NCBI GenBank assembly: GCA_003212795.1
Contig: QCOV01000001.1
Coordinates: 463,321-527,320, forward strand
Length of the DNA: 64,000 nt
Source of the DNA: OCS116 cluster bacterium AG-435-F03
GTDB lineage: Bacteria; Pseudomonadota; Alphaproteobacteria; MED-G09
Reading direction: 5' to 3'
The notes under the pieces are model-generated. The model was not told where the DNA came from. It was given only the letters and a program-made list of their open reading frames with translations, and made no database searches. The stretch's first letter is position 1, and every line of letters begins with the position of its first letter. The position numbers were made by a program, and so were the translations under genes. Positions 857 to 30,157 of the stretch are shown piece after piece.

Positions 857-2167
857 ATGTCAGAAACAACAAAAACAGCACAATATGAAGATTTTGAAGA
901 TTTCTTTTCAAAAAGCTTAAAAGAAGCTGATCCAAAATTATACGAATCTTTATCTCAGGAATTTGATAGGCAACAAGAGCATATTGAATTAATAGCATCA
1001 GAAAATATTGTTTCTAGATCTGTTTTAGATGCCCAAGGCTCCATTATGACAAATAAATATGCTGAAGGATATTCAGGCAGAAGATATTATGGAGGATGTG
1101 AATATGTTGATCTAGCAGAGGATCTTGCTATTTCAAGAGCATGTGAATTATTTGATTCAAAATACGCCAATGTCCAACCTCACTCAGGATCGCAAGCTAA
1201 TCAAGCTGTTTTTCAAGCTCTTCTAAAGCCTGGTGATACAATTTTAGGTATGAGCTTAGATGCTGGAGGTCACTTAACTCATGGCGCAAAACCCAATCAA
1301 TCAGGCAAGTTATTTAATGCGATTCAATATGGTGTAAAAAAAGATGACAGCTTAATAGATTTTAATGAAGTAGAGTCTCTTGCAAATCAGCATAAACCAA
1401 AACTAATTATTGCTGGAGGATCTGCTTATCCAAGAGTAATAGATTTTGCAAAATTTAGAGAAATAGCAAATAATGTAAATGCTTATTTGTTAGTTGATAT
1501 GGCTCATTTTGCAGGTCTTGTAGCTTCCAAAACCTACCCATCACCAATAGCAATTGCAGATATTGTTACCACAACTACACATAAAACCTTAAGAGGTCCA
1601 AGGGGTGGATTAATTCTCACTAATAATGAGGATATTTCAAAAAAAATAAACTCAGCAATTTTTCCAGGAATACAAGGCGGACCACTCATGCATACAATTT
1701 TAGCGAAGGCTGTAGCTTTTGGTGAAGCATTAAGACCAGAATTTGTTAATTATTCACAAAATGTAATAGATAATGCAAAAATATTATCTCAAACACTTCT
1801 TGAAGATGGTTTTGATATAGTTTCTGGAGGTACAGACAGTCACCTTGTTCTTCTAGATCTTAGACCAAAAGGAATAAAAGGTAATGAAGCTGAGGATGTA
1901 TTAGGAAAAGCAAATATAACTTGCAATAAGAACGGTGTTCCATTTGATCCTGAAAAACCAACTATAACATCAGGTATTAGGTTAGGAACTCCTGCAGGTA
2001 CAACTAGAGGGTTTGGACAGGCGGAGTTTCATAAAATTGGAACTTATATCTGTGAAGTCCTAAATGGATTTCAATCAGATGGTGTTGATACAAAAGCTAT
2101 TTTAGAAGTTCAGAAAAAAGTGATAAATCTTTGCAGAAAATTCCCTATTTATGGAGGAAATTTATGA
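857..2167 (+). CDS. glyA: Serine hydroxymethyltransferase
   Basis: PLP enzyme that interconverts serine and glycine while charging tetrahydrofolate with a one-carbon unit. The PLP lysine sits in [14 protein letters not shown], and [27 protein letters not shown] and the [14 protein letters not shown] segment are near-diagnostic. With the ATG at 857 the protein is 436 residues, the usual length. An in-frame TTG at 794 would add 21 residues unlike the family, so I reject it. The stop codon overlaps the nrdR start (ATGA), suggesting translational coupling. glyA-nrdR-ribD is a common alphaproteobacterial order. Confidence 0.97.
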
Positions 2168-2634
2168 GGTGCCCTTTCTGCGGAAATGAAGATACTCAAG
2201 TAAGGGATTCTCGTCCAACAGAGGAGGCTTCTTCAATTAGACGAAGAAGACAATGCCTTGCATGTGGTGGAAGATTTACAACTTTTGAAAGAATACAGAT
2301 GAGAGATTTAACTGTTGTTAAAAGATCAGGAAGAAGAACCCCTTTTGATAGAGATAAATTAATGAGGTCTGTTCAAATTGCCATTAGAAAAAGGGATATA
2401 GATCCTGAAAAAATTGAAAGAATGGTAACGGGTATTATTCGTCAATTAGAAAGCACAGGTGAGTCAGATATTCCCTCTAACTTAATTGGAAGTCTAATTA
2501 TGGCAGCACTAAGAGAATTAGATATGGTTGCATATGTAAGATTTGCTTCAGTTTATAAGAATTTTAGAGCGGTTGGTGATTTTGAGGATTTTGTTGGCGA
2601 ACTTGATAATCCTCCAAGTAAAATTGATGATTGA
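2164..2634 (+). CDS. nrdR: Transcriptional repressor NrdR
   Basis: Nucleotide-sensing repressor of ribonucleotide reductase genes. The N-terminus is a zinc ribbon (CPFC at residues 3-6, CLAC about 30 residues on) followed by an ATP-cone domain beginning near [16 protein letters not shown]. At 156 residues it is full length. The start at 2164 overlaps the glyA stop and has a strong GGAGG seven bases or so upstream. Its position between glyA and the riboflavin genes is the usual one. Binding sites for NrdR are not obvious within this window, which contains no ribonucleotide reductase gene. Confidence 0.97.
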
Positions 2635-20699: not shown

Positions 20700-23564
20700 T
20701 TACTTGTATATTTCTTTAAGGAATTTACCTGTATAGCTTTTTTTAGTTTTGATAATTTCCTCAGGTGTGCCTTGAGCAACAATTAAACCTCCGTTATCAC
20801 CACCTTCGGGTCCGACATCAATAATCCAATCAGATGTCTTAATTACATCAAGATTATGTTCTATTATAGCTACTGTATTTCCTTGATCTACAAGCTCATG
20901 TAAGACACTTAGTAATTTTTTCACATCATGAAAATGCAATCCAGTTGTTGGCTCATCAAGAACATAAAAAGTTCTTCCTGTAGCTTTTTTTGCAAGTTCT
21001 TTAGCTAATTTTATTCTTTGAGCTTCACCCCCTGATAGTGTAGTTGCTTGTTGACCAACTTTTATGTAACCAAGACCAACTCTTTTTAATGTTTCCATTT
21101 TTTCTCTTATGCTTGGAACAGCTTTAAAGAGTTCATGTGCTTCATCTACAGTCATCTCTAAAACATCAGAGATAGAGTTTTCTCTATATTTAATTTCTAG
21201 AGTCTCTCTATTATATCTTTTCCCTTTACATTGATCACACTGAACATATACATCTGGAAGAAAATGCATTTCTATTTTTATTAAACCATCACCCTGACAA
21301 GCTTCACATCTTCCACCCTTAACATTGAATGAAAAGCGCCCAGGTTTATATCCTCTTGCCTTTGATTCAGGTAAACCACAAAACCAATCTCTTATGGGTG
21401 AGAACGCACCAGTATAGGTAGCAGGATTTGATCTTGGGGTCCTACCAATTGGTGATTGATTGATGTTTATTATTTTATCAATTAAATGCATTCCATCTAT
21501 TGAATCATATTTCATAGGTGAGTTTTGAGAGTTATTTAAGGTTCTGTTCATGGCTCTATATAGGGTTTGAAATAGTAATGTTGATTTTCCAGAACCTGAA
21601 ACACCAGTAACACAAATAAATCTTCCAAGAGGAAATTCTGCATTTATTTTTTTTAAATTATTACCTGATGCACCTTTAATTGTAATTTTTTTATCATTAT
21701 CAATTTTTCTCTTTTTTCTTAATTCAATAGATTTTTTTCCTGAAAGGTATTGACCAGTGATGCTGTTCTTATTTTTTTTGATTTGCTCAATATTTCCTTC
21801 TGCAACTAAATGACCTCCATGAATACCTGCCTTTGGTCCAACATCAATAATATAATCTGCAAAGTTCATAGTTTCTTCATCATGCTCAACAATAATGACT
21901 GTGTTTCCAAGATCTTTTAGTCTTTTTAGTGTTGATAATAATTTTTTATTATCTCTTTGATGTAATCCTATTGATGGCTCATCCAAAACATACAAAACAC
22001 CTGTTAATCCTGACCCGATTTGAGAAGCCAATCTTATTCTTTGTGATTCACCTCCAGATAGAGTTCCTGAAGTTCTTGAAAGAGTCAAATACCCTAAACC
22101 AACATTCTCCAAAAAAGATAATCTTTCCATAATCTCTTTGATGATATTTTTGGCAATTTCTTTTTCTTTTTTATTTAATTTTTTTTCTAGCTTAACAAAC
22201 CAATTTTTAGCATCTTTTATGCTTAATGAGGTTAATTGACCTATATGCATATTGTTAATTTTTACACTTAAAGCTTCATCATTTAATCTATAACCAGAAC
22301 AACTTTCACAATCTGAAATAGATTGGAATTTTTCTATTTCATTCCTCATCCAACTACTATCAGTTTCAATATATCTTCTTTTTAAATTATTAATTATTCC
22401 CTCAAAAGGTTTTTTAGTTTTAAAAGTTCTTGAGCCATCATCATATAGAAACTCTATTTCATCATTTTCAGATCCATTGAGAATTATATTTTTAAAATCT
22501 TTTGGCAGATCTTTCCATTTAATATCTAAGGAGACATTGTAATGATTTGATAAGGCAAATAATGTTTGAAAATAATAGGGTGAGGGCGTAGATTTTTTTG
22601 ACCAAGGAGCAATAGCGCCATCATTTATACTTAAATTTTTATCTGGAATAACTAATTCTTCATCAATGAAATATTGTGTTCCGAGTCCATCACACTTATT
22701 GCATGCCCCTTTAGGGTTATTAAAAGAAAAAAGTCTTGGCTCTATCTCTTCAATAGTAAAACCAGATACTGGACATGCATAATTAGCAGAAAATAATATT
22801 CTTTCAGCTTCTTCTTTTTTATCGCTTTGAATTTCTATTACAGCCAAGCCATCTGATAACGATGTAGCTAATTCAAAACTATCAGCTAATCTTGATTTAA
22901 TATCATCATTAATAACGAGTCTGTCCACCACAACATCAATATTATGTTTAAAATTCTTTTTTAGGTTTGGGACATCTGAAATTTCATAAAATTCACCATC
23001 AACCTTAACTCTTTGAAAGCCTTTTTTTAGTAGCTCAGAAAATTCCTTTCTGTATTCACCTTTTCTTTCTCTTATGATTGGGGCTAGTAAATATACCTTA
23101 CTATTTTTTTTTAACTTTAAGGCCTGATCAACCATTTCAGTTATAGTTTGACTTTTAATTGGGAGGCCAGTCTCAGGTGAATGAGGAATACCTATTCTTG
23201 CAAACATTAATCTTAAGTAATCATGAATTTCTGTTACCGTCCCAACAGTAGATCTAGGATTACGTGAAGTTGTCTTTTGTTCAATAGATATCGCTGGCGA
23301 TAGTCCTTCAATTTGATCAACATCAGGTTTTTGCATCATTTCCAAAAATTGTCTTGCATACGCAGATAAGCTTTCAACATATCTTCTTTGACCTTCAGCA
23401 TATATTGTATCGAAAGCTAAGGATGATTTGCCAGACCCTGATAAACCAGTAATTACTGTAATTTCCTCTTTAGGTATATTAACGCTAAGGTCTTTTAGAT
23501 TATGCTCTCTAGATCCATAAACTTTAATAAATTTCTTGGAGTTTTTTTTAGATACTTCTTTCAC
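20700..23564 (-). CDS. uvrA: UvrABC excinuclease subunit A
   Basis: Damage-recognition ATPase of nucleotide excision repair. It has two ABC modules, each with Walker A ([14 protein letters not shown] and [14 protein letters not shown]) and signature motifs ([10 protein letters not shown] and [10 protein letters not shown]). The zinc modules are present, including [16 protein letters not shown] with [10 protein letters not shown]. 954 residues, full length. It is divergent from ssb across 92 bases. I looked there for an alphaproteobacterial LexA box (GTTC-N7-GTTC type) and saw none. Confidence 0.98.
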
Positions 23565-24226: not shown

Positions 24227-26944
24227 ATGTCAGATACAACTGACGAAGATCCAATTGATAGCAAGGATATCTCTAATACTAATTTAGATCAGGAAATGCG
24301 TCAGTCATATCTAGATTACGCAATGAGCGTTATAGTATCTAGAGCCTTACCAGATGCCCGTGATGGTTTAAAACCAGTTCACAGAAGAATTCTTTATGCA
24401 ATGCATGAAGATGGGTATGATTACAATAAGCAATATAGAAAATCTGCAAGAGTTGTTGGTTCAGTTATTGGTAAATACCATCCCCACGGTGATCAAAGTA
24501 TCTATGATGCCCTTGTAAGAATGGCCCAACCTTTTTCGCTTCATCTACCATTGGTTGATGGACAAGGGAATTTTGGCTCTGTCGATGGCGATCCACCAGC
24601 TGCAATGAGATATACAGAAGTAAGGATGGAAAAAATTGCTCATCACCTTCTTAATGACATCAATTTAGATACAGTAGATTTTCAAGAAAACTATGATAAC
24701 TCTGAAAGTGAACCTATTGTTCTGCCTGCTGAATTTCCAAATCTACTTGTAAATGGTGCTGGTGGAATTGCTGTAGGTATGGCTACAAATATTCCTCCTC
24801 ATAATTTAAACGAAATTACAGAAGCATGTATGTTTATAATTGATAATCCTAAGACTGATGATCAAGAAATGGATCAAAGATTATGTGAAATTGTCCCAGG
24901 TCCTGATTTTCCAACTGGAGGAATAATTTTAGGAAAAAGTGGCGCTAGAAGCGCTTATACAACTGGCAGGGGTTCGGTGGTAATTAGAGCTAAAGTAGAA
25001 ATTGAGGAAATACGCAAGGATAGAGAGGCGCTAATTGTTACAGAAATACCATATCAGTTAAATAAGGTGCTACTAATACAAAAAATTGCTGATTTAGTAA
25101 GAAATAAAACAATTGAAGGTATATCTGATTTAAGGGATGAAAGTGATCGTCATGGAATGAGAATAGTTATAGAACTAAAACGTGACTCAGTTGCAGAAGT
25201 AATTTTAAATCAACTTTATAAATTTACTCAACTTCAAACTTCTTTTGGCGCAAATATGGTTGCTTTAGATAAAGGAACTCCTAAGCCAATGAAGTTAAGA
25301 GAAATGCTTACTTGCTTTATTGATTTTAGAGAAGAAGTTGTAACGCGAAGATTAAAATTTAAATTAAACAAGGCTAGAGATAGAGCCCATCTATTGGTTG
25401 GCCTAGCTATTGCAGTTTCAAATATAGATGAAATTATAAAACTTATCAGATCTTCTAAATCACCTGCTGAGGCAAGAGAGGATTTAATGGATCGTGAATG
25501 GCCCGCCAAAGATGTTAAATCACTAATAAAACTAATTGATGATCCTAGACATGGTATTACTGCTAAGGGTAATTGTTCATTTACTGAAGAACAGGCCAGA
25601 GCAATTTTAGAATTAAGACTTCAAAGATTAACTGCTATGGGTATCGACGAAATCAAATCAGAATTAGATGACTTAAAAGGAACAATAGAAGATTTGCTAT
25701 CTACTCTGGGTGATAAAGGTAAAATTTATGACATCATTAAAGATGAGCTAACTTATGTTAAAGATAACTTTGCCGTTGAAAGAAGAACAGAAATCCTTGG
25801 GGAATTGGATGATGTTGAAGATGAAGATTTAATAAAGAAAGAAGATATGGCTGTTACTGTTACCAGATCAGGCTATATCAAGCGTGTACCTTTATCAACT
25901 TATAGAGCTCAAAATAGAGGCGGTAAAGGTAGAGCAGGCATGCAAACAAAAGATGATGATTTTGTGAGACATATTTTTATTTCTAATACTCATCAACCAA
26001 TTTTATTTTTTTCATCGAAAGGAATGGTTTACAGATTAAAGACATGGAAATTACCACTTTCTAGCCCTCAAGCAAAAGGAAAGGCCATGGTTAATCTTCT
26101 TCCGTTGGATGAAGACGAAAGAATAACAACAGTAATGTCTTTACCTGAAAATCAAGATGAATGGGAAAATTTATATGTAATATTTGCAACTTCCTCTGGT
26201 GGCATAAGAAGAAATTCATTAGCAGATTTTTGGCGTATTAATAAAAATGGTAAAATTGCCATGAAGTTAGATTCTAAAGAAAGAATTATTTCTGTTCAAA
26301 CATGCACAGAAGATAACGACATACTTTTAGCAAGCAAGAAAGGCCAAAGTATTAGGTTCAATGTAGATAAAGTTAGAGTATTTGCATCTAGATCTTCTAC
26401 AGGTGTAAGAGGTATTAGATTATCAAAAAATGACAGCGTTGTTGGTATGGCGGTATTAAACAGAGTAAAAGCATCAAATGATGAGCTAAGGGCTTATCTA
26501 AAGATGTCATCTATGATGCGTAAAGCGACAACAGATGATAGCAATGATGATGATGATCTGGACTTTGAAGGAAATGATATAGAGCTTTCAACAGAAAGGT
26601 ATTCAGAATTAGCTGCAAGTGAAGAAATAATTCTAACCGTTGCGTCTAATGGGCAAGGAAAAAGATCTTCTGCATATGAGTATAGAACTACAAATAGAGG
26701 TGGGAAGGGTGTTATAGGAATTAAAATGACTAAATCACATGGTGATTTGGTTGCCTCCTTTGTAGTTGATGAAAATGATCAAATTATGCTTATAGATAAT
26801 AGTGGAAAATTAATTAGATGTCCTATTACAGATATAAGAATAATGGGAAGAACAACTCAAGGTGTGAAAATATTTAATATAGACAAAAATGCACATGTTG
26901 TTAGTGTAGAAAGAATTTTCGAAAGCGAGGGAGAGGAAGAATGA
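24227..26944 (+). CDS. gyrA: DNA gyrase subunit A
   Basis: Breakage-reunion subunit of gyrase. The catalytic tyrosine is Tyr129 in AAMRYTE. The quinolone pocket reads [13 protein letters not shown]: residue 90, equivalent to E. coli Ser83, is glutamine, while the Asp equivalent (94) is kept. The C-terminal domain has a GyrA box as [10 protein letters not shown] with a second copy TNRGGKG. It also has an acidic insertion near residues 765-790 (a run of Asp after TTDDSN) of the kind found in Alphaproteobacteria. 905 residues with an acidic end. Its stop overlaps coaD by four bases. Confidence 0.97.
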
Positions 26945-27423
26945 AGATAGCTGTTTATCCAGGTTCCTTCGATCCATTTACCTTAGGTCATAAAGATATA
27001 TTATTAAGAAGTTCAAGAATTTTTGATAAAGTTATAGTTGCCATTGGCGAGAACCACGGTAAACAAAATCTTTTTACTATTGAAGAAAGAATTAAAGATA
27101 TATCAAATGAAATCAATGATATAGGAATTAAAGATAATGTATTAGTTGAATCTTTTAGTGGTTTAATAGTTGATTTTGCAAGATCTAAAAATGCTAATAT
27201 TTTAATTAAGGGTGTAAGGGGTCCGGTAGATTATGACTATGAATTGCAGATGGCAGGAATGAATTCAACAATGAATCCTGATATCGAGACTATTTTTCTT
27301 ATATCAAGACCTGAATTTAGCTACATTTCTTCATCTTTAGTTAAGCAAATTGCCTTAATGAAAGGTGATTATTCAAGTTTTGTTAGTCCAATCATTGAAA
27401 AATCTATTAAAAGTAAAATATAA
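26941..27423 (+). CDS. coaD: Phosphopantetheine adenylyltransferase
   Basis: Penultimate step of coenzyme A synthesis: phosphopantetheine plus ATP to dephospho-CoA. It begins with [15 protein letters not shown] containing the T/HxGH nucleotide motif, and later carries [19 protein letters not shown] and the [13 protein letters not shown] segment. 160 residues. It overlaps gyrA by four bases, a known alphaproteobacterial pairing, and is one base from the cyclophilin gene. Confidence 0.96.
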
Positions 27424-27424
27424 A

Positions 27425-28000
27425 ATGCCTATAATTAATAGTTTTTCAATACTTAGTTTCTTTTTATTTTTTATGGGGATGCCAATGTCAGATATAAATG
27501 CAGAGAATATTAAATCTCAAAATCTAGTGATGGAAGTAACACAGAATTCAGAAATAACAGATCCTTCTGAGAATCCTCCAATTGGTAAGGTTGTTATAAA
27601 GCTCTACCCAGATGTAGCCCCTAAACATGTTGCACAAATTACAATGTTGGCTAAAGAAGGTTTTTATGACGGAATAATTTTTCATAGAGTTATTGAAGGT
27701 TTTATGGCGCAAACTGGGGATCCTACTGGAACAGGTATGGGTGGTTCAGATCTACCAGACATAAGAGCAGAGTTTAGTGACGAACCATTTGTAAGAGGAA
27801 CTTTAGGTATGGCTCGATCACAACATCCAGATAGCGCAAACTCGCAATTTTTTATTTGTTTTGAAGAGGCTTCATTCTTAAATGGTCAATACACTGTTTT
27901 TGGAAAAGTAGTTGAAGGAATGGAGTATATAGACAAAGTTATGCGCGGTGAACCGCCTGACTACCCTGATAAAATAGTATCAATGAAGTTGTCTGATTAG
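27425..28000 (+). CDS. Exported cyclophilin-type peptidyl-prolyl isomerase
   Basis: Speeds proline isomerisation in exported proteins. The first 26 residues from the ATG at 27425 form a signal peptide (hydrophobic FSILSFFLFFMG then NA). The cyclophilin core shows FYDGIIFHRVIEGFMAQTGDPTGTGMGG and GTLGMARSQHPDSANSQFFIC, with the catalytic Arg in FHRV. 191 residues. An upstream alternative start inside coaD is rejected because it would destroy the signal peptide. Linked to queA downstream by a five-base gap. Confidence 0.92.
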   Translation: MPIINSFSILSFFLFFMGMPMSDINAENIKSQNLVMEVTQNSEITDPSENPPIGKVVIKLYPDVAPKHVAQITMLAKEGFYDGIIFHRVIEGFMAQTGDPTGTGMGGSDLPDIRAEFSDEPFVRGTLGMARSQHPDSANSQFFICFEEASFLNGQYTVFGKVVEGMEYIDKVMRGEPPDYPDKIVSMKLSD

Positions 28001-28005
28001 GGTTT

Positions 28006-29052
28006 ATGTTTCTTAAAGATTTCTCCTTTGAACTACCTGAGGATTTAATAGCAGTTAAGCCAGTCTTTCCAAGAGACTCATCAAAACTACTTGTTTTAGA
28101 ATCTCTTAACTCTTATCAAAATTGTCTATTTTCTGATATCTGTGATTATTTATTACCCGGAGATTTATTGGTGGTTAATAATACTAAAGTTAATGCTTCT
28201 AAAATTATAGGTATAAAAAAAGGCACAAAATCAAAAATAGAATTTACTTTCATTTCGAACGAAAAAAATGGTATTTGGTTATGCTTTGCCTTACCAGGAA
28301 AAAAAGTTTCTATAGGTAATTTATTTATTTTTAGAGATGTTGAGGGAAAAGTCATTAATAAAGACAAAGAAAAGATATATATAGATTTTGGAACCAAAAA
28401 TAATGAATTTTCAGCCATTCTTACATCTTTTGGTGAAATTGCACTTCCTCCGTATATATCAAAGTTAAGAAAGTTTGAAGATCAAGATAATGAAGATTAT
28501 CAAACTATATATGCACAAAAAAGAGGTTCAATAGCTGCTCCAACAGCAGGACTTCATTTTACAGATAATCTTCTAAAAAAAATTAAAAGAAAAAAAATTG
28601 ATATCGAGAGCATTACTTTGAATATTGGTCCAGGCACATTTTTGCCTTTAAGGAATGATAAGGTTGAGGATAACAACTTACATTCAGAAAAATTTTATAT
28701 TTCTGAACAATCATCAGATATTCTTAATGATGCATATCATAATAAAGACAGGAGGATTATATCTGTTGGAACAACTTCTCTAAGAGCTCTAGAGTCTTCC
28801 TTTGATAGTAAAAATTTTTTTAAACCTTTAGATACATCTACTAATATATTTATTTATCCGGGTAAAATAATTAAATCAATTGATGGCCTGATAACAAACT
28901 TTCATTTACCTCAATCATCACTTTTTTTGTTAATATGCACCTTAATAGGGACGAAAACAGCATTAGATATGTATAATTATGCTATAGAAAACAAATATAG
29001 ATTCTACTCTTATGGAGATGCATGTTTTTTATTAAATAAAAATTATGGATAA
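28006..29052 (+). CDS. queA: S-adenosylmethionine:tRNA ribosyltransferase-isomerase
   Basis: Makes epoxyqueuosine on tRNA from preQ1 bases. Signatures are the N-terminal FELPEDLIAVKP, LPPYI, SIAAPTAGLHFT, LNIGPGTFLPL and GTTSLRALES. 348 residues. It overlaps tgt by eight bases, so the two steps of queuosine synthesis are adjacent. No motif is missing, which matters because the neighbouring Tgt is unusual. Confidence 0.96.
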   Translation: MFLKDFSFELPEDLIAVKPVFPRDSSKLLVLESLNSYQNCLFSDICDYLLPGDLLVVNNTKVNASKIIGIKKGTKSKIEFTFISNEKNGIWLCFALPGKKVSIGNLFIFRDVEGKVINKDKEKIYIDFGTKNNEFSAILTSFGEIALPPYISKLRKFEDQDNEDYQTIYAQKRGSIAAPTAGLHFTDNLLKKIKRKKIDIESITLNIGPGTFLPLRNDKVEDNNLHSEKFYISEQSSDILNDAYHNKDRRIISVGTTSLRALESSFDSKNFFKPLDTSTNIFIYPGKIIKSIDGLITNFHLPQSSLFLLICTLIGTKTALDMYNYAIENKYRFYSYGDACFLLNKNYG

Positions 29053-30157
29053 ATTTAAGTTTAAAGTTTTAAAAAAAGATGGCTATGCCCGCAAAGGTCT
29101 TATTGAAACCAAAAGAGGCAATATTAAAACACCTGCATTTATGCCTATAGCTACTCAAGGAGCAGTTAAGTTTACTCCCATAGAGTTTATAGAACAGATT
29201 GGATATGAATTAACGCTCTCAAATACCTATCACTTACTATTAAGACCTGGATTAGAAAGACTTTCTAGTGTTGATGGTATTTCAGAGTTTATGGGATGGA
29301 ATAAGCCAGTATTAACAGACTCTGGAGGCTTTCAGGTGATGTCTCTATCAAAATTAAGAAAAATATCTGAAGAGGGAGTAAAATTCCAATCTCATATTGA
29401 TGGTGCATCACACTTTTTAACTCCTGAAAATGTAATTGATTATCAGAATACAATTAAGTCTGATATTCAAATGGTTCTAGATGAATGTATTCAGTACCCC
29501 GAATCTTACGAGAATGTTAAAAAGTCAATGGAATTATCACTTAGATGGGCTGAGAGATCCAGAAAACATTATAATAAAAATAAAAGTAAAATTTATGGAG
29601 CCCAATTTGGAATAATTCAAGGAGGTGTATTTGAAGATTTAAGAGAGACATCAATTTCTGAAACAGTTAATTTTGATTTTGAGGGATATGCTATCGGCGG
29701 ACTAGCTGTTGGTGAAGGTCATGAAAAAATGATTGAGGTTGTTGATTATACTGCGCCCCAATTACCTGAAGATAAAGTGAGATATCTTATGGGGGTCGGA
29801 AAACCTAATGACATTATTGAGGCAGTTTATAGAGGTGTTGATATTTTTGATTGCGTTATCCCAACTAGAGAAGGAAGACATGGTATCGCTTATGTTGGCT
29901 CTAGCTCTATTAACATAAAGAATTCTAAATTTGAGAGTGATTTAACTCCGTTAGATGAAAGTAGTGATTACTTTGTTTCAAAAAAATATTCAAAAAGCTA
30001 TTTAAATCATTTGTTAAAAATTAAAGACCCTTTAGGACCAATGTTAATTTCTCTCCATAATCTTAATTATTATTTCAATTTGATGACTGATCTAGGAGTA
30101 TCCATTGAAGAAGGTAGATTAGATAGTTTTCGAGAAGATTTTTATAAGGATAATTAA
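29045..30157 (+). CDS. tgt: Queuine/preQ1 tRNA-guanine transglycosylase lacking zinc cysteines
   Basis: Exchanges guanine-34 for preQ1 in tRNAs with GUN anticodons. Catalytic residues are present: Asp92 in LTDSGGFQVMS, Asp269 in IFDCVIPTREGRHG, and the base-binding GGLAVGE. The structural zinc site is not: where E. coli has C-x-C-x2-C (Cys302, 304, 307), this protein has Ser307, Tyr309 and Ser312 in an otherwise alignable segment, LDESSDYFVSKKYSKSYLNHL. The fourth ligand, His338 in SLHNL, remains. 370 residues, normal length, so this is not a truncation. The gene overlaps queA, which argues for function. Zinc-free folding is inference. Confidence 0.94.
   Translation: MDKFKFKVLKKDGYARKGLIETKRGNIKTPAFMPIATQGAVKFTPIEFIEQIGYELTLSNTYHLLLRPGLERLSSVDGISEFMGWNKPVLTDSGGFQVMSLSKLRKISEEGVKFQSHIDGASHFLTPENVIDYQNTIKSDIQMVLDECIQYPESYENVKKSMELSLRWAERSRKHYNKNKSKIYGAQFGIIQGGVFEDLRETSISETVNFDFEGYAIGGLAVGEGHEKMIEVVDYTAPQLPEDKVRYLMGVGKPNDIIEAVYRGVDIFDCVIPTREGRHGIAYVGSSSINIKNSKFESDLTPLDESSDYFVSKKYSKSYLNHLLKIKDPLGPMLISLHNLNYYFNLMTDLGVSIEEGRLDSFREDFYKDN

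Follow-up and report, generated by a model that had tools for sequence, protein, structure and literature searches.

Among the closest described systems are the tRNA-guanine(34) transglycosylases (Tgt) of Zymomonas mobilis and Escherichia coli, which contain three cysteine zinc ligands. Cys-to-Ser mutants of the E. coli enzyme were reportedly found by Chong et al. in 1995 to lose zinc as well as activity. Some zinc proteins, including the ribosomal proteins L31 and L36, have zinc-free (C-minus) variants that dispense with the structural zinc cysteines and remain functional. According to a paper of 2022 that dealt with metals and queuosine, zinc is needed for TGT to be active (PMC9508795); the zinc-binding residues of Tgt were described in a review as highly conserved (PMC4425180). 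In the Z. mobilis enzyme, the aromatic residues W326, Y330, and H333 were found to be part of the dimer hot spot (PMC5395182). According to a report on Sinorhizobium meliloti 1021, the tgt (SMc01206) mutants were defective in the queuosine (Q)-dependent phenotypes, and preQ1 rescued the queC and queF mutants but not the tgt mutants (PMC3568095). When produced in E. coli, the Tgt of Bartonella henselae (Hyphomicrobiales) inserts preQ1, and it partially restored Q in an E. coli mutant supplied with preQ1; unlike the protein studied here, it occurs without queA and queG, and it takes queuine at high concentration (PMC11570991).

Tgt Protein and Its Gene

In our study, a Tgt devoid of the structural zinc site was found in the window, that is, the whole stretch of 64,000 nucleotides of OCS116 cluster bacterium AG-435-F03 that was analysed. 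The gene and its neighbours are as follows.

26941–27423, plus strand: coaD, the first gene of a conserved neighbourhood (TIGR01510)
27425–28000, plus strand: cyclophilin-type peptidyl-prolyl isomerase, ppi (PF00160)
28006–29052, plus strand: queA, S-adenosylmethionine:tRNA preQ1 ribosyltransferase-isomerase, with an 8-base overlap with tgt (NF001140, 382.8 bits; TIGR00113, 340 bits)
29045–30157, plus strand: tgt, tRNA-guanine(34) transglycosylase of 370 amino acids, structural zinc site absent (TIGR00430, PF01702, alignment with the E. coli and S. meliloti Tgt, AF2 model)
29951–30058, plus strand: former zinc-binding segment of tgt, codons 303–338, with S307, Y309, and S312 for three Cys and with H338 retained

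The window Tgt matched TIGR00430 over residues 6–368 with 456.4 bits, above the equivalog cut-off of 306.75, and its PF01702 score was 458.6 bits. In a gapless alignment with the E. coli Tgt (sequence from the public record, matched by PDB entries 10FB and 10FA), S307, Y309, S312, and H338 were found at the positions of C302, C304, C307, and H333. The zinc hallmark Cys-x-Cys-x2-Cys ... His is absent from the window Tgt, and His338 is the sole ligand left. The catalytic Asp pair was retained as D92 and D269 (D89 and D264 in E. coli), and the preQ1 pocket GGLAVGE was present. An earlier note on this DNA had claimed that the three zinc cysteines were replaced by Ser307, Tyr309, and Ser312 in a segment encoded at 29951–30058, that the fourth ligand His338 and the catalytic Asp92 and Asp269 were kept, and that tgt overlaps queA. 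The alignment bore out the residues and their numbering, and the position of the segment and the gene overlap also proved to be right.

The window Tgt contained only two cysteines, C148 and C270, which correspond to C145 and C265 of E. coli and lie outside the zinc site. A shift of the ligand cysteines to another part of the protein was ruled out, because no cysteines other than these two are present. The fold, the catalytic Asp residues, the preQ1 pocket, and the hot-spot positions are common to the window Tgt and to the Tgt of Z. mobilis (PDB 1PUD and 1OZM) and E. coli, whereas all three Cys ligands are missing from the window protein. The hot-spot positions W326/Y330/H333 of Z. mobilis correspond to Y315/Y319/H322. 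Judged from the amino acid sequence, the window protein is a Tgt by every feature tested except the zinc site, and the site is therefore not a defining feature of the family. The genome was found to carry one tgt and no second, zinc-containing copy; in this it differs from the C-minus ribosomal variants, which are second copies switched on in low zinc.

Distribution of Tgt Without the Zinc Site

The Tgt sequences compared came from named genomes and from genomes of other members of the window organism's family, class, and phylum. All four ligands were found in 209 and the site was lacking in 103 of the 312 Tgt sequences in which all four ligand positions were aligned; as percentages these counts are indicative only, the sample being a non-random one of best scorers and hand-picked families, in which a few genomes may be counted twice (two collections overlap; L037 is the same as L140) and phyla beyond Pseudomonadota are hardly represented. 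One hundred of the 103 zinc-less sequences are known to be alphaproteobacterial. As a feature that defines Tgt the zinc site fails, since it is missing from 100 of the 223 alphaproteobacterial members sampled, the S. meliloti Tgt included. The site was kept in all 70 sampled genomes of the non-alphaproteobacterial Pseudomonadota, 40 of which were taken from lower in the score list.

In the named genomes, the site was absent from all members of Hyphomicrobiales (16/16), Caulobacterales (8/8), and Pelagibacterales (9/9), and it was present in all nine members of Rhodobacterales, marine ones included. Erythrobacter was found to be mixed, with S/C/S/H at the four positions in two genomes (L164 and L166) and the full C/C/C/H site in another (L187). 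One zinc-less Tgt (L190) came from a contig labelled Candidatus Sulfopaludibacter (Acidobacteriota) and grouped with Caulobacterales in the 312-row tree; it probably reflects misbinning or gene transfer.

The earlier suggestion that this lineage may have a zinc-free Tgt holds in its first part, as the site is gone, the enzyme is otherwise intact, and a homologue with a like loss is genetically functional; its restriction to one lineage does not hold, because the loss has recurred in Alphaproteobacteria and is common there. What is surprising is how broadly the site has been lost. No published report of a zinc-independent Tgt was found in the open-access literature. Among the sequence matches no solved structure of a zinc-less Tgt was seen, and the PDB entries closest in sequence to the Brucella protein were those of Z. 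mobilis.

Recurrence and Pattern of Ligand Loss

Two trees were built with the zinc columns removed. The FastTree tree of 312 rows required 13 state changes, 6 of them forced by supported branches, and the PMSF (mixture-model) tree of 104 rows required 16, at least 7 of them forced. Some of these changes could be regains, for example in L023, which was placed inside a zinc-less group. A single origin of the loss was ruled against, the trees requiring far more than one change. Mapping the cysteine loss on a tree of relatives had been proposed beforehand as a check, and on both trees the loss in Alphaproteobacteria came out as recurrent. The family of the window formed a clade with support. In the 312-row tree it grouped with Pelagibacterales, but this grouping was absent from the PMSF tree and may be compositional.

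Four ligands were retained in 209 of the 312 Tgt sequences, three in 2, two in 39, one in 51, and none in 11. The near-absence of three-ligand sites agrees with cooperativity of the site, the departure of one ligand releasing the others. Among the 103 zinc-less sequences, the middle Cys was retained in 64 and the His in 59. The residues at positions 312 and 338 were found to co-vary: Ser occurred with His in 49 sequences and Ala or Thr with a non-His residue (Asn/Ile/Val/Ala) in 33, with 6 exceptions. The Fisher test gave p = 2e-17 with kinship ignored, and the independent pairs, which all ran in one direction, were too few for more than p = 0.125. This pattern suggests that residues 312 and 338 may still be in contact. 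Taken over the class, the structural zinc site of Tgt is likely to be dispensable and to have disappeared in many independent events within Alphaproteobacteria by a switch between two states (four ligands versus no more than two), which would make the class a natural experiment in turning a zinc cluster into a metal-free core within a housekeeping enzyme.

Function and Structure Without the Zinc Site

None of the 103 zinc-less sequences differed at either catalytic Asp, at Y319 (Y330 of Z. mobilis), or at H322 (H333 of Z. mobilis), and nearly all of them had an aromatic residue at position 315 (W326 of Z. mobilis). The AF2 model of the window Tgt had a mean pLDDT of 92.1, with 92–97 for residues 301–350, a confidence that is due in part to the fold of the family and implies no metal-free stability, because the input included homologues, many of which contain zinc. 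The model agreed with Z. mobilis Tgt structures within 1.1–1.4 Å over 362–370 residues; for 1OZM the value was 1.3 Å over 369 residues at about 49% identity.

The S. meliloti Tgt (strain Ak57, L337, UIJ96520.1) contained S/C/T/N at the four positions, that is, three of the four ligands are gone. Like the window Tgt it has lost the site, and by the genetic evidence it is functional in the queuosine pathway (PMC3568095); it differs from the window Tgt (S/Y/S/H) in that its middle Cys is retained and the His is replaced by Asn. We take the requirement for tgt seen in the S. meliloti mutants as the key evidence that a Tgt may function without the site; the sequence is from strain Ak57 and the genetics from strain 1021, and the genetic results considered are phenotypes rather than Q in tRNA. 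The B. henselae Tgt, which was active in E. coli, is probably without the zinc site too, as are all sampled Hyphomicrobiales. An S/C/A/N protein was found in a 1.5-Mb genome with 35% GC at the locus (L275), in a family otherwise made up of large Rhizobium-like genomes; queA was not detected beside tgt there.

We consider that the window Tgt is very probably an ordinary, working preQ1-inserting enzyme whose C-terminal subdomain folds without zinc, after repeated loss of the site in Alphaproteobacteria. In the proposed mechanism, the subdomain (approximately residues 298–345) would fold without the metal, and once one ligand was lost the remainder would become dispensable, so that two to four ligands would be lost together. 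The emptied pocket would be refilled by small polar or hydrophobic residues, in the window Tgt by Ser/Tyr/Ser beside the retained His, and His338 with other residues could in principle still hold a metal weakly. The TIM barrel would stay, as would catalysis through D92 and D269 and the dimer hot spot with its aromatic residues Y315, Y319, and H322; the protein would be expected to remain dimeric and to act on tRNAs that carry GUN anticodons, with QueA and then QueG acting downstream. The earlier note held that bacterial Tgt needs the zinc site for its C-terminal fold, a view generalised from the enzymes of E. coli and Z. mobilis.

An ion that is usually called required appears to be dispensable in a large bacterial group. 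If about half of alphaproteobacterial Tgt do without zinc, the requirement is not general, and inferences that link queuosine to zinc status would need revising for Alphaproteobacteria. The default annotation of a zinc cofactor on zinc-less Tgt proteins would be unwarranted. Close pairs, such as Erythrobacter with and without the site, would offer direct tests of zinc-site loss with activity kept.

Possible Causes of the Loss

A refinement that is compatible with this reading, and that would supply the reason for the loss, is neutral and class-specific dispensability: alphaproteobacterial Tgt would first have gained stabilising features (e.g., a Pro-Ala pair located between Cys ligands two and three, and a Trp preceding the His), and the site would then have been lost by drift in many lineages. 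We lean slightly towards it. The losses are almost confined to Alphaproteobacteria, and the site-bearing members of the class contained P (97/123) and A (86/123) at positions 310–311 and W (78/123) at 337, where Y (59/86), T (66/86), and I (51/86) were found outside the class. The covariation of positions 312 and 338 points the same way, with the small number of independent pairs given above. However, the window Tgt contains F, V, and L at 310, 311, and 337, and the Pro-Ala and Trp features would therefore be unneeded after the site was lost.

Zinc economy would be another cause, in which selection for lower zinc demand in zinc-poor (e.g., oceanic) water removed the site, as in the C-minus ribosomal protein paralogues. 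The zinc-less Tgt of all nine Pelagibacterales and of some Erythrobacter, together with the small genome of the window's organism (1.44 Mb), would agree with this. Two further zinc proteins are encoded in the window.

2164–2634, plus strand: nrdR, four-cysteine zinc ribbon intact (PF22811, 73.7 bits; sequence)
20700–23339, minus strand: UvrA, with three of four Cys in zinc module 1 (CPVS...CNKC, one Cys changed to Ser) and module 2 intact

The replaced cysteine of UvrA module 1 (CPVS) would also suit zinc economy, whereas UvrA module 2 and NrdR retain their zinc cysteines; the intact ribbon of NrdR means that zinc sites were not purged genome-wide, and the QueC of the sister genera keeps all four zinc cysteines. 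Moreover, the zinc-less Hyphomicrobiales and Caulobacterales are in many cases from soil, plants, animals, and groundwater, whereas the sampled Rhodobacterales, marine members among them, and the non-alphaproteobacterial Pseudomonadota keep the site. Zinc economy is an improbable cause on this evidence. Marine zinc scarcity, which had been put forward as the driver, is unsupported, as Mesorhizobium, Brucella, Bradyrhizobium, and Caulobacter (soil, plant, and animal groups) have lost the site and the NrdR ribbon and QueC cysteines were kept; as a general cause it is unnecessary.

Queuosine Pathway and Gene Neighbourhood

The gene order coaD-ppi-queA-tgt of the window resembles the order coaD-ppi-ppi-(gene not listed)-tgt in the S. 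meliloti annotation. The window genome was found to contain queG and queF. QueC was absent from all seven genomes of the window's genus and was found in the sister genera, where queF-queE-queC lie between kdsA and eno. At this locus, queF was kept and queE-queC were cleanly gone in the window genome and in G003; the loci compared were L329 (G000:C1:376000-384000) and L331 against L330 and L332. The loss of queC and queE does not explain the loss of zinc, because the sister genera with queC have also lost the site. S. meliloti has a de novo queuosine pathway, unlike the window's organism, in whose genome no match to the TIGR00697 importer was found. Judged from this gene content, the window Tgt probably works on salvaged preQ0 or preQ1, and its genus is predicted to be a preQ0 salvager.

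The lost family hallmark, the genus without queC and queE, and the missing importer match would also be expected if the protein were a paralogue that had taken on another role or substrate, such as the insertion of deazapurine into DNA or service as an inactive partner resembling the eukaryotic QTRT2. This idea, which the earlier note had raised, is very improbable, given that the sole tgt of the genome scores above the equivalog cut-off, keeps the catalytic Asp pair and GGLAVGE, and adjoins queA in a genome that keeps queF and queG. The QTRT2-like subunit is the opposite of the window Tgt, its zinc site being kept and its catalytic Asp pair replaced (PMC6165067, PMC4425180).

Conservation in the Family and Additional Tgt Copies

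The same S/Y/S/H residues were found in three congeners, whose Tgt are 94.9–95.4% identical to that of the window. All seven full-length Tgt from other genera of the family had lost the zinc site too, with S/F/S/H or S/Y/T/H. The nearest named relative is the MAG 'Rhodobiaceae bacterium NP1070' (L140), with 65% identity. Between congeners, dN was 0.018–0.030 and dS was 0.16–0.40, giving a dN/dS of approximately 0.06–0.11, and the zinc subdomain (residues 298–345) was constrained about as strongly as the rest of the gene. A sequencing or assembly error, for which the segment had been marked for checking, or a decaying gene is a negligible prospect, because the congeners and the family members share the loss and the full-length frame is under purifying selection.

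No clear case of a zinc-plus and zinc-minus paralogue pair was found among the second Tgt copies L333–L336, which are distant homologues, or both zinc-containing, or in a bin (G225) with 8% contamination. L333 (G051) and L334 (G038) are distant second Tgt-like proteins of approximately 30% identity, one of which has neither the zinc cysteines nor the usual pocket, while the other contains the zinc ligands and is without the nucleophile motif and the pocket. Matches resembling tgt were also found in phage records.
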